A DNA stretch of 64,000 bases from Halobacteriovoraceae bacterium. Lineage in GTDB: Bacteria; Bdellovibrionota; Bacteriovoracia; Bacteriovoracales; Bacteriovoracaceae. The notes below the pieces were generated by a model that had not been told where the DNA came from, searched no databases, and worked only from the letters and a program-made list of their open reading frames with translations. Of this stretch, positions 41,830 to 58,289 are shown in pieces (the stretch's first letter is position 1; every line of letters begins with the position of its first letter). Location: assembly GCA_002712005.1 (NCBI GenBank), contig PASP01000004.1, forward strand, positions 33,302-97,301, written 5' to 3'. A program made the translations under genes and the position numbers.

Positions 41830-42414
41830 CTAAGGTTCATCATCACCAGGTTCGTCATCACCAGGTTCATCATCACCAGGTTCATCATCACCGGGTTCGT
41901 CATCACCAGGTTCATCATCACCAGGTTCATCATCACCAGGTTCGTCATCACCAGGCTCAGAAGGTATTCGATCTTTACATAAGTTAATATCTTCTTGAAA
42001 CTCTGGTGCACATAAATCAATCCACTTCTTGATATAGTCAATTTCTTTTGGATCTAGAGGAGCCTTTGGAGGCATTTCTCCATGTTTTACTGATAGAAAT
42101 AATCTACTTCTTTCAGCATTTCCTTTAACTAAAATAGGTACAAATCTACTTTCAACGAGATAAAAGTATTTTGATAAATTAACAGGGTCATTTTCTGGAT
42201 AGGCTAATTGACTAGAGTGACATCCTATACATTTAGGCTTAAGAATATAATTGTAAAGGGATTTGAAATTAATAGGAGCATCACCATCTAGAATAGGATT
42301 AACTTCTACAAACTCTGTAGTGCCTACTTCTTTAAAATTGAACTTACCCTTCTTCTTATCAATACAGCTAAATGCAATTGAGCTCAGTAGAAAAAGTATC
42401 AACAATAACTTCAA
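41830..42414 (-). CDS. Cytochrome-c-like lipoprotein with EPGDD tail
   Basis: The lipobox is AFSC. The motif CIGCH binds haem c, and the downstream GEMPPKAPL offers the distal methionine, as in planctomycete-type cytochrome c domains. The C-terminus is eight copies of EPGDD, then EP and the stop. I prefer the TTG at 42414, with AGGAGG five bases upstream; the ATG at 42432 has none. A CsoR-like operator lies in the promoter, so copper may induce it. Electron transfer in the envelope is inferred. Confidence 0.8.
   Translation of the reverse strand: MKLLLILFLLSSIAFSCIDKKKGKFNFKEVGTTEFVEVNPILDGDAPINFKSLYNYILKPKCIGCHSSQLAYPENDPVNLSKYFYLVESRFVPILVKGNAERSRLFLSVKHGEMPPKAPLDPKEIDYIKKWIDLCAPEFQEDINLCKDRIPSEPGDDEPGDDEPGDDEPGDDEPGDDEPGDDEPGDDEPGDDEP
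41833..41958 (-). repeat. 15-base tandem repeat encoding EPGDD
   Basis: Eight units of 15 bases, with small synonymous changes, encode (EPGDD)8 and end at the stop codon. Slippage would change tail length by five residues without shifting frame. The other frames of this repeat give spurious methionine-rich reading frames. Confidence 0.95.
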
Positions 42415-42487
42415 AACGCCTCCTAATTTCATTTAGAGACAAAATTAACATAACAATAAATACCATAGTAGAGACCATGTAAAATGT

Positions 42488-54981: not shown

Positions 54982-55032
54982 TCTACCTAAAGAAGTGCCA
55001 TGCTCTTTTGGTTTCGCTCTTGCTAAGTACAT
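54982..55032. repeat. Dispersed palindromic repeat, copy 2
   Basis: It nearly matches copy 1 at 53079-53121, including GAAGTGCCATGCTC and TTTGGTTTCGCTC. A related but weaker sequence, GAAGTGCCATGCC, occurs at 57757-57769. Confidence 0.75.
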
Positions 55033-55057: not shown

Positions 55058-55262
55058 TAAACTGGTTGGGTGGACGACGTGCTCTGTTTCTAGCTAATCG
55101 TGTATGGTGGGCTCGTGAATGCCGCGCCTTCGGCTGGATTCACTTCAATCACATACCTCTGCGCTTCAATGCTTGTCACTGGCAACCATTGCTGCGCGAG
55201 GCTAGCAGGATCTTTTCGATCCCGCTCAACGGGTCCACCAGTATGGCGCTGAAAGACGCAAT
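55058..55262 (+). other. GC-rich element with tRNA 3'-end-like segment
   Basis: This stretch is visibly GC-richer than its surroundings. At 55215-55240 it reads TTCGATCCCGCT, then CAAC, then GGGTCCACCA. These match the 3' end of the tRNA-Ala at 58214-58289 (with A in place of CAAC), but in the opposite orientation. ACTGGT recurs near both ends as an inverted pair. It may be a mobile element end, an attachment site or a structured RNA; the type is unknown. Confidence 0.45.
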
Positions 55263-55418
55263 TATGCTTTTGATTAATTTTGTGTGTTAGAAATGATATG
55301 GGGAATTGAATGGTGGATTTTTAAGACTTCTCCTAAATCCAACACCTTAAGTTAGGCTCGTTGACAACATAGCGAACGTGAGTCACGTCCAGTCACATTG
55401 AGAAGAAAAAAAGCTATT

Positions 55419-56909
55419 TTATCGATTCATTTCAGAAAGAAGTGCATTAAAGTATTCTTCGAAATTTGTTACTAAGCGATCTCTGTTTTTATTTGATTCA
55501 TTAGGAAAATATTGATTAAAAACAAATTTAAGATTCTCAGGCTTTTTATTATCTTCTACTATCGATGCTAGTTTCTCAAACATCTCCATAGGCTTATCTT
55601 TAAAAATAGAACATAGGATATCTAAGTCATCTATAGGTACAAAAAACAAACAATCGGGATTAAAGTGATCTAACTTTAAATCTGGGTAGGAGCTTCTTAC
55701 TGCATCATAAAGAAATTCATCCCAGACGCTTCTACCATTTCCTAGAAAAAGTTCACTATAAGTCACAACAAAAATAAAGTTATCAAATCGACATCCTGAA
55801 GTATTAATATCTTCTAAGTTGTTTAGACTTATAATACTTTGGACCACTCCCTTTATAATATCTTTATCAAGACGTTCTTTTAACAAGTCATCTAGTGGGT
55901 TGATTTGTAAAATTTCTTTAAGTTTAATAAACTTACACTCTATTATTAATCTATAGTGAGCTTCTACAATAAGAAAATCTGCGTTTTTTGAGTCCTTAAA
56001 TAATTCTTTGAAAAAGTTATCTCTTTTTACATTTTTTGTAATTTCATTTAGAGCATTGAAAACATAATCTTCAAAAGTGTCACTGAAAATCCTATTAAAA
56101 TTACCGTTACTTTTCAGAGAAGGAAAAGAATATAAAAAGTCATACATAAAATATGAGTAGATGTTTCGCGATACACACAGTAAACCTTTATCAGTTCTCA
56201 AAAAAGGTCTATCCTTAAAAGGAGATCTTTCGACATTTTGAAGCTTTAAATTACGATTAAAGCTTTTGTTAGAAATGTCATAAGCTTCATCATAATTTAT
56301 AGAGATCAAACTTAGGAAAGTATTTAATTTATTTTCATCATACCCATTCCAATTTAGAAAAAAGCCTTTATTCAAATAAGGATTTTCCTCATTTAAAGAC
56401 TCAAGAAAAAACCAAACAATAAATAGATGATCAAAAACATCCTTAGTCGTCATTGAAATTTCAGAAATAAAGAAAGAGTTTAAATCAAACTTAGAATCCA
56501 TTTTAAAATAAAGTTCAATAAGTCTTCCAATACTACTCTTATTTAAAAACTGATTCCCCTGTAGCCAGAACTGTTGAAATGCTGCTCTACGCATAAATTT
56601 AATAATTTGATTTTTAACAGATTTATCAAATCCTAAATCTGTGTTCATACTTTGATTAAGAATTAATAAATCTCTAATATCTTTATCTGTAGCTAATCTC
56701 TTAGTTTCTTTTGATGAAAATACAATAGACCATTTTAGGAGCAATAATAACTCCCATGTAGTCATACCTGAACGTGGCATCTCTTCTATTGGAGATTTTT
56801 CTAAATGATATACTTTACCAATGATCAAGAAAAGTATTGAATCTATATTCAATTTTCTTAGACGATTTCTAATTGGCTTAAATTTTCTATATTCTTCGCT
56901 AATGGCCAT
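55419..56909 (-). CDS. PD-(D/E)XK nuclease-like protein
   Basis: Residues about 275-330 show a PD-(D/E)XK arrangement: Glu281 in FEDYV, Asp312 in ADFLI and ECK at 325-327. The rest is helical and lysine-rich, with no recognised domain. I chose the ATG at 56909; a GTG lies one codon upstream. It begins 37 bases after the antitoxin stop, so it probably shares that operon. A restriction or defence nuclease is inferred from motif and context only. Confidence 0.65.
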   Translation of the reverse strand: MAISEEYRKFKPIRNRLRKLNIDSILFLIIGKVYHLEKSPIEEMPRSGMTTWELLLLLKWSIVFSSKETKRLATDKDIRDLLILNQSMNTDLGFDKSVKNQIIKFMRRAAFQQFWLQGNQFLNKSSIGRLIELYFKMDSKFDLNSFFISEISMTTKDVFDHLFIVWFFLESLNEENPYLNKGFFLNWNGYDENKLNTFLSLISINYDEAYDISNKSFNRNLKLQNVERSPFKDRPFLRTDKGLLCVSRNIYSYFMYDFLYSFPSLKSNGNFNRIFSDTFEDYVFNALNEITKNVKRDNFFKELFKDSKNADFLIVEAHYRLIIECKFIKLKEILQINPLDDLLKERLDKDIIKGVVQSIISLNNLEDINTSGCRFDNFIFVVTYSELFLGNGRSVWDEFLYDAVRSSYPDLKLDHFNPDCLFFVPIDDLDILCSIFKDKPMEMFEKLASIVEDNKKPENLKFVFNQYFPNESNKNRDRLVTNFEEYFNALLSEMNR

Positions 56910-56946
56910 CACCTATCATTATTCAATTATGAATATGGCTTAAAAA

Positions 56947-57276
56947 TTAAGCCGCCAGTTCTTTACTGATAGCAGAGGTTACTTTCAACATATTGTCGAT
57001 ATTGAAATTAGCTCCAGCCGCCATCCTTCTAATTGTAGCGATTGGGACTTTCGATCTTCTAGCGAGTTCTTCTTTATTAATGACACTGAGATAACCAGAA
57101 ATAATGTCATGAAAAGCTTCTTTATCACCTTCAAGGATAGCTTTGGAGAGAGCTTCGGAGAGAGCTTCGGCTACGGCCTTGCTGTCTTTGAAAAATTCAA
57201 CAGAATCATTCTTAAAAAGAGTTTTCCCTTTCTTAACCTTAATAGGAGCTAATGAATCAATGTTAAAATTTGCCAT
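56947..57276 (-). CDS. HigA-like antitoxin with helix-turn-helix
   Basis: The 109-residue protein ends with a helix-turn-helix: NKEELARRSKVPIATIRRMAAG. The N-terminal half is acidic and helical with ALSEALSKAILEGD, as in HigA antitoxins paired with Gp49-type toxins. The ATG directly follows the toxin stop, which is the usual HigBA order. It probably autoregulates the operon. Confidence 0.85.
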   Translation of the reverse strand: MANFNIDSLAPIKVKKGKTLFKNDSVEFFKDSKAVAEALSEALSKAILEGDKEAFHDIISGYLSVINKEELARRSKVPIATIRRMAAGANFNIDNMLKVTSAISKELAA

Positions 57277-57582
57277 TTAATTATCCTCACTTATTTTCTT
57301 CAAGATAGATTTAGCTTTTCTAATGTCCTTATCTTGAGAGTTCTTATTTCCACCGATTAAAAGAATTATTATGTTTCCATTTTTATCTTTCGTAAGGGTG
57401 AAATAAATCCTTCTTCCATTCCCCCACTTTAGCTCTGCTAGACTTTCAGCCAGCTTCTTAGCAATTCCAAAGTGGCCATCAGTTCTTATTCTAGCGATTC
57501 TCGCTTGAATTTGAGCCTGTTCTTTGATCGCCTGTTTATTAAACCAATCTATGTATTCCTTGGTTTCTTCGACTCTATACAT
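57277..57582 (-). CDS. HigB/RelE-like toxin (Gp49 family)
   Basis: The protein fits the phage-derived Gp49/HigB toxin family: ETKEYIDWFNKQ, IARIRTDGHFG, LAELKWGNGRRIYFTL and LLIGGNKNSQDKDIRKA. I chose the ATG at 57582, with AGGA seven bases upstream. Such toxins usually cleave mRNA at the ribosome. It is first in an operon with its antitoxin and a nuclease-like gene. Confidence 0.85.
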   Translation of the reverse strand: MYRVEETKEYIDWFNKQAIKEQAQIQARIARIRTDGHFGIAKKLAESLAELKWGNGRRIYFTLTKDKNGNIIILLIGGNKNSQDKDIRKAKSILKKISEDN

Positions 57583-57589
57583 CCAAATC

Positions 57590-57659
57590 CTATCATATTT
57601 GATATGAAAATCAACATTTCCTATCATTTTTGATATATTTCATACATTCTCAAATGTAT
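57590..57659 (-). promoter_or_regulatory. Likely promoter/operator of the toxin-antitoxin operon
   Basis: A perfect dyad ATACATT-CTCA-AATGTAT lies at 57642-57659. A second near-palindrome, CATATTTGATATG, lies closer to the toxin start. HigA-type antitoxins bind such sites to repress their own operon. Confidence 0.55.
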
Positions 57660-57802: not shown

Positions 57803-58051
57803 TCAAAATCTTTTATTCCTAAATGCAATTCCAGATGCTGTTTTAAGATATCTTTCAAAGTTGTAGGCTTTCTGCTTGTCAGAAAACCAGTGAACAGTTT
57901 CTAGTTTCCATGGAATATACTTTGATGTGTATTTACTTTCGCCTCTATTATGTTCTCTAAGACGTCGTTTAAAGTCATTACTAAGACCAACATAAGTTTT
58001 TGAGATATTTGATTTGCTTCTAAGGATATAGACGTACATGTTTTTATTCAT
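57803..58051 (-). CDS. GIY-YIG domain protein
   Basis: MYVYILRS and TYVGLSNDFKRRLREHN are the GIY-YIG core of the small UPF0213/YhbQ-type family, with the catalytic arginine in the last motif. The 82-residue length is normal. It lies between the toxin-antitoxin operon and tRNA-Ala. These small proteins are thought to act on DNA, but roles are poorly known. Confidence 0.85.
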   Translation of the reverse strand: MNKNMYVYILRSKSNISKTYVGLSNDFKRRLREHNRGESKYTSKYIPWKLETVHWFSDKQKAYNFERYLKTASGIAFRNKRF

Positions 58052-58134: not shown

Positions 58135-58213
58135 TTCTTCGCTAAAGCTTCGAAGAACACCATTCTTCTTTTATCTTTAAATGGCCTCCGCCATTCGAAG
58201 CTTTAGCGAAGAA
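58135..58213. repeat. Perfect 20-bp inverted repeat abutting tRNA-Ala
   Basis: TTCTTCGCTAAAGCTTCGAA (58135-58154) is the exact reverse complement of 58194-58213, the base next to the tRNA CCA end. A second pair, CACCATTCTTC/GAAGAATGGTG (58158-58168 and 58208-58218), overlaps the CCA end itself. It could be the tRNA terminator or part of an insertion scar. Confidence 0.75.
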
Positions 58214-58289
58214 TGGTGGACCCTAGCGGGATCGAACCGCTGACCTCCTCGCTGCCAGCGAGGCGCTCTCCCAGCTGAGCTAAGGGCCC
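58214..58289 (-). tRNA. tRNA-Ala (anticodon GGC)
   Basis: The sequence folds as a 76-base tRNA. The acceptor stem GGGCCCT pairs with AGGGTCC, including one G-T pair. The anticodon loop CTGGCAG gives anticodon GGC, reading GCC. The T-loop is GGTTCGATCC, and the 3' CCA is encoded. It is the only tRNA in the window and could serve as an integration target. Confidence 0.95.

Follow-up and report, generated by a model that had tools for sequence, protein, structure and literature searches.

A nuclease gene related to GapS1 and a HigB/HigA-like toxin-antitoxin pair are very probably two functionally separate cargo modules of an integrative-element remnant at a tRNA-Ala(GGC) gene of a Bacteriovoracales bacterium. 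The genes lie in the 64,000-nucleotide stretch of DNA that we analysed (hereafter the window), whose preliminary description had taken the three of them, standing beside a tRNA, for a tripartite toxin-antitoxin-nuclease unit and a possible unrecorded phage-defence system. In the trio, known parts have come together by chance, and it is no new three-part system.

The arrangement of the genes is as first described: all three are on the minus strand and nearly gapless, with ORFs at 57277-57627, 56947-57276 and 55419-56912. The end of the toxin ORF directly abuts the start of the antitoxin ORF, and 34 nt separate the antitoxin from the nuclease. The toxin ORF is longer than the probable gene; because relatives of the toxin begin at MYRVEE, HigB probably starts at 57582, and the operators would then lie upstream of higB and not inside the gene. 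The nuclease ORF has a GTG start and codes for 497 aa, a numbering that is kept for the active-site residues below, and the protein probably starts at the ATG at 56909 rather than at the GTG at 56912. The dyad operator that had been placed ahead of the genes is likewise present, as a tandem TATCA-N4-TGATA of which the 64-kb window holds two perfect copies only. The HigB-proximal copy is kept at an equal distance from higB in a congener (L104) and in the other relatives named in Table 1, and the HigB-distal copy is found in the same congener in a shorter form, ATCA-N4-TGAT, at roughly the same position.

Table 1. Features of the trio, of the modelled nuclease and of the surrounding island (window positions unless residues are given)
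Feature	Position	Strand	Remarks
higB-like toxin	57277..57582	-	RelE/ParE superfamily, TIGR02683; 101 aa; start set by alignment with relatives
higA-like antitoxin, HTH protein	56947..57276	-	109 aa; weak HTH_3; homologues adjoin the higB of relatives
GapS1-like PD-(D/E)XK nuclease	55419..56909	-	~496 aa from ATG 56909
Operator dyad TATCATATTTGATA	57591..57604		same position upstream of higB in L104, L106, L085 and L088
Second operator dyad TATCATTTTTGATA	57622..57635		31 bp upstream of the first dyad
Small dyad TATTCA-N4-TGAATA	56920..56935		higA/GapS1 gap
Hairpin overlapping the higA stop	56936..56954		terminator-like score on + strand only
GIY-YIG domain protein	57803..58051	-	82 aa; PF01541, 2.4e-16; within the tRNA-bounded interval
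tRNA-Ala(GGC)	58214-58289	-	presumed integration target
tRNA-side repeat copy TCCACCATTC (attL-like core)	58211..58220		10-bp direct repeat
Conserved distal end (attR-like)	55309..55417		starts a few nt past the GapS1 stop; ends in TCCACCATTC
Nuclease core elements (model)	H271-288, E295-297, E313-317, E320-327, H341-369, E377-384		residue numbers
Active-site residues	E281, D312, E325-x-K327, K354, Q358		497-aa ORF numbering

The first two genes proved to be a HigB/HigA-like pair, as had been proposed. The toxin scores 68.7 bits against TIGR02683 (NCBIfam), above the cut-off of 62.85, and also matches a phage toxin family; a PDB sequence search with the toxin profile gave no credible match. 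Its HTH partner follows directly downstream and matches HTH_3 weakly (14 bits), and a HigA homologue adjoins nearly every HigB relative examined. HigBA is an ordinary toxin-antitoxin pair, which shares with TIGR02683-type pairs the order of its parts (toxin first, HTH antitoxin second, dyad operator upstream) and differs from them in nothing notable apart from a 4-residue (12 bp) internal duplication in HigA, seen in comparison with the congener copy. By analogy with the family, HigB is probably a ribosome-dependent mRNase restrained by HigA, and the pair is probably self-regulated, with HigA binding HigB and using the tandem dyad to repress its own promoter. Another copy of the pair, in genome G208 (L105 4917-5471), has higB interrupted by an in-frame stop and higA shortened, and is apparently decaying.

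The third protein had been assigned to no known family. Its sequence identifies it as distantly related to GapS1, a known anti-phage nuclease made up of one protein, since it matches NF047931 (antiphage_GapS1, NCBIfam) over its full length with an E value of 1.1e-59, residues 14-467 aligning with profile positions 1-454 of 455. The score of 202.6 bits is under the curated naming cut-off of 320, and we therefore file the protein as a GapS1 relative and do not name it GapS1. Neither Pfam nor PADLOC returned anything for the nuclease, plasmid records gave no match, and the PDB sequence search yielded no credible match and no solved structure of the GapS1 family. A scan of genome contigs with the single sequence found no match, whereas an alignment-based scan did find homologues. 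Homologues were drawn from GTDB genomes, IMG/VR and Klebsiella prophages, and all 37 of those aligned match NF047931.

GapS1, or GAPS1 (Mahata et al. 2024, Nat Microbiol 9:3268, as cited in passages of PMC12774648 and PMC12259885), is reported to be a stand-alone defence system in passages of PMC12774648 and PMC12908700, and according to a conference abstract (PMC12908700) the GAPS1 of K. pneumoniae gives protection against many phages. The window protein has in common with GapS1 the full-length homology, the two-part layout and the PD-(D/E)XK residues, and differs from it in occurring in Bdellovibrionota, in standing downstream of HigBA and in two substitutions at near-invariant positions, E330K and E298D. 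Among the Klebsiella prophages that yielded homologues, ST437-OXA245phi4.1 encodes a GAPS1-like protein that has been described by structure (PMC12774648). This protein is homologous over 84% of the window protein and is also mobile-element cargo; however, the identity is ~23%, and the gene lies directly after the integrase of a P2-type prophage with no toxin-antitoxin pair. The only congeneric GapS1 relative (L002 522-4225) shows 37% identity; its neighbours are a small PARP/DUF3990-like gene and an unknown gene of 407 aa.

The preliminary description had pointed out E-D-ExK residues as in PD-(D/E)XK nucleases; they are present and conserved, and structure prediction places them in a nuclease fold. 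The AlphaFold2 model (mean pLDDT 88.4, pTM 0.89) consists of an all-helical N-terminal part followed by a canonical PD-(D/E)XK core, in which residues 271-384 form a helix, three strands, a long helix and a strand in the order typical of this fold. Across the 37-member alignment D312, K327 and Q358 are invariant, E281 is found in 36 members and position 325 holds D or E in every member. The best fold match in the PDB is Upx (9wuf, cryo-EM; Z 12.6, 355 residues, rmsd 4.4), a match that spans both domains; Upx is a 1212-residue protein of which only residues 33-525 align, with 8% identity. Nt.BspD6I and FokI-like nucleases follow with Z of 7-10, together with other restriction-type nucleases, and a fold search of BFVD gave no match at E 0.001. 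The N-terminal all-helical domain (~6-230) would presumably sense infection and the C-terminal PD-(D/E)XK domain (~270-450) would cut nucleic acid once triggered, a role that we infer for the latter from its fold, its residues and the reported anti-phage role of GAPS1.

A PD-(D/E)XK fold is common to resolvases and restriction enzymes, and the gene is carried by a mobile remnant, with a GIY-YIG gene close by; both facts would suit a homing or replication/repair nuclease of the mobile element rather than a defence protein. We regard this as highly improbable, because the full-length match to the anti-phage GapS1 family includes the N-terminal domain, the best fold match covers both Upx domains, and relatives occupy varied cargo positions, including, in P2-type prophages of Klebsiella, the one that immediately follows the integrase. 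Defence cargo is common in the slot downstream of the integrase in P2-type prophages.

The window protein departs from seven near-invariant columns of the alignment, as do two other members, the worst in this respect. Two of these departures, E298D and E330K, the latter immediately behind the ExK motif, fall at positions that are E in 36 of the 37 members, and judged from the alignment the seven departures could weaken activity. The seven changes, one of them beside the active site, and the want of an integrase in the surrounding element would be in keeping with a gene in decay, its frame intact and its protection lost, which is kept only through recent arrival. Such decay is unlikely in view of the 497 intact codons, the retention of all catalytic residues, the high-confidence fold and the existence of two other members with as many departures.

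The idea of a tripartite system did not survive the comparison of loci. HigBA and GapS1 travel separately and the trio is not conserved, as judged from sequence comparisons in both directions. This kind of HigB/HigA pair stands beside GapS1 at none of 58 GapS1-family loci, of which 56 offered at least 1 kb of flank upstream and 46 flanks on both sides; a single weak HTH match (E 0.002) was found ~1 kb from GapS1 in L024. The same HigB/HigA profiles recover HigB at 23 of 23 toxin loci, though they were built from those loci. In an independent search, TIGR02683 matches occur in 10 of the 40 source genomes or records, none of them inside a GapS1 locus when coordinates alone are compared. The closest same-genus relative of the toxin, in G215, is 93% identical, against only 70% for a conserved chromosomal protein. 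Its HigBA matches the window at the DNA level over 56947-57636 (690 bp, 89% identity); the match breaks off precisely at the stop codon of higA, and the pair stands alone elsewhere in its genome, in which no match to GapS1 was found.

These results bear on whether the three genes could form one conditional abortive-infection unit, in which HigA would repress all of them and phage transcription shut-off or HigA loss would free both HigB and the nuclease. The shared strand and the short gap speak for it: the gap holds no predicted promoter and, on the genes' strand, no predicted terminator either, since the hairpin at the higA stop is terminator-like only in the other direction. A small dyad also lies within the gap; it has only TCA-N4-TGA in common with the operators and is, on its letters, a possible but weak HigA site. 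We nevertheless consider such a unit quite improbable, given that the pair is found at no other GapS1 locus, that the closest HigBA copy stops at the higA stop without GapS1, and that GapS1 is reported, in passages of PMC12774648 and PMC12908700, to defend alone. There is, to the same small degree, a chance that HigA gates the downstream GapS1 in this lineage and that HigA loss during infection triggers both effectors. With two separate modules, GapS1 may still be read from the HigA-controlled promoter, because 34 nt, and no terminator predicted on that strand, separate it from higA; such read-through would be incidental to its function, since GapS1 relatives lack the HigBA pair. What stands of the proposed unrecorded phage-defence system is a plausible defence role; the family was already known as GapS1, and the tripartite unit falls away.

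The neighbouring tRNA turned out to be relevant, as tRNA-Ala(GGC) bounds an island and its 3' end is repeated at the distal end. The distal copy of TCCACCATTC, at 55308-55317, reproduces the tRNA 3' end, and the 64-kb window contains this sequence twice only, at 58211 and 55308. The interval between the tRNA and the ~105-bp end sequence measures 2.9 kb, and a search of Rfam gave only the tRNA. Among 98 related genomes the core motif of the distal end was found in seven, at most once per genome (backwards control, 0), and TCCACCA, the tRNA 3' end, closes six of the seven end copies, the exception being that of G126. Where the DNA upstream of the end sequence is readable it contains accessory genes, namely a HipA-like gene in G126, a probable toxin-antitoxin pair in G123 and, in G288, a 311-aa HTH protein behind a PtuA/PtuB-like pair. 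The latter pair, an ATPase and an HNH protein (L133 3765-5850) of the Septu or retron Ec78 effector type, is cargo of a related tRNA-Ala-type island.

The island of G055 lies between tRNA-Ala(GGC) and the end sequence and occupies the chromosomal site that the window segment occupies, adjoining the lipoprotein gene pair found there too. In G288 the tRNA-Ala flank is homologous, beginning with the first bases after CCA, to the DNA beyond the G099 end, where the homology begins right after TCCACCA, as expected for an empty versus an occupied site. A tyrosine integrase is associated with the end sequence in related genomes: five of the seven end-bearing genomes (G288, G099, G123, G295 and G055) encode integrases that are 78-100% identical, or a fragment (86%), and G246 has a 70% identical integrase with no end sequence detected. 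The G099 element additionally contains a TraG-like coupling protein, TrbI, SSB and an HTH gene.

Taken as an element of this kind, an integrative (conjugative-type) element would have inserted at the 3' end of tRNA-Ala(GGC) and left its accessory cargo behind. The ORFs of the 2.9-kb interval include no integrase and no conjugation gene, and the best integrase relative in the window's own genome is 41% identical and lies on another contig. The best reading of the window segment is a remnant or cargo-only form of an integrative element at tRNA-Ala, so called because it has no integrase inside. As in tRNA-integrated ICE/IME and their cargo-only derivatives (CIME), the tRNA 3' end is repeated at the far end, and the end sequence is common to integrase-bearing relatives; the window copy differs from ICE/IME in its lack of integrase and conjugation genes. 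The repeat core of only 10 bp and the fact that no integrase is left count against the island reading. An integron gene cassette was considered and rejected, as the short attC-core-like motifs of the 3' element lie much too close together and none of the 98 relatives has more than one copy of the element in its genome.

Further observations concern the islands and their surroundings. A PRiA4_ORF3-like gene in the G055 and G099 islands (L130 10771-11400; L156 10679-11308) starts with the first ~20 codons of HigA (MKKFDxRSLEPIKVKKGKTF), with a DNA match score of 53 against a shuffle maximum of 29; this apparent fusion scar suggests that HigBA was once in the same cargo slot. Beyond the distal end of the window segment, a dispersed short repeat, AAGTGCCATGCTCTTTTGGTTT (54988-55032), recurs several more times in the genome and many times in relatives, frequently in inverted pairs, and is REP- or MITE-like. 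A hairpin-bearing GC-rich repeat (55114-55240; ~51% GC versus 37% in the window) contains tRNA-like strings and has copies in G059, G215 and G173. A lipoprotein-like ORF (41830-42432) ends in a run of PGDDE repeats.

These findings extend the GapS1-like defence family to Bdellovibrionota, and the model obtained for this divergent member has high confidence and links it structurally to Upx. Of greatest interest among the by-products is a family of tRNA-Ala elements in Bacteriovoracales whose defence cargo is exchangeable. These related integrative elements can be recognised by one end sequence, and their cargo, which differs between genomes, includes toxin-antitoxin, Septu-like and GapS1-like genes. 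The end sequence can be used to seek further defence cargo in Bacteriovoracales, a group that includes predatory Bacteriovorax-type bacteria.
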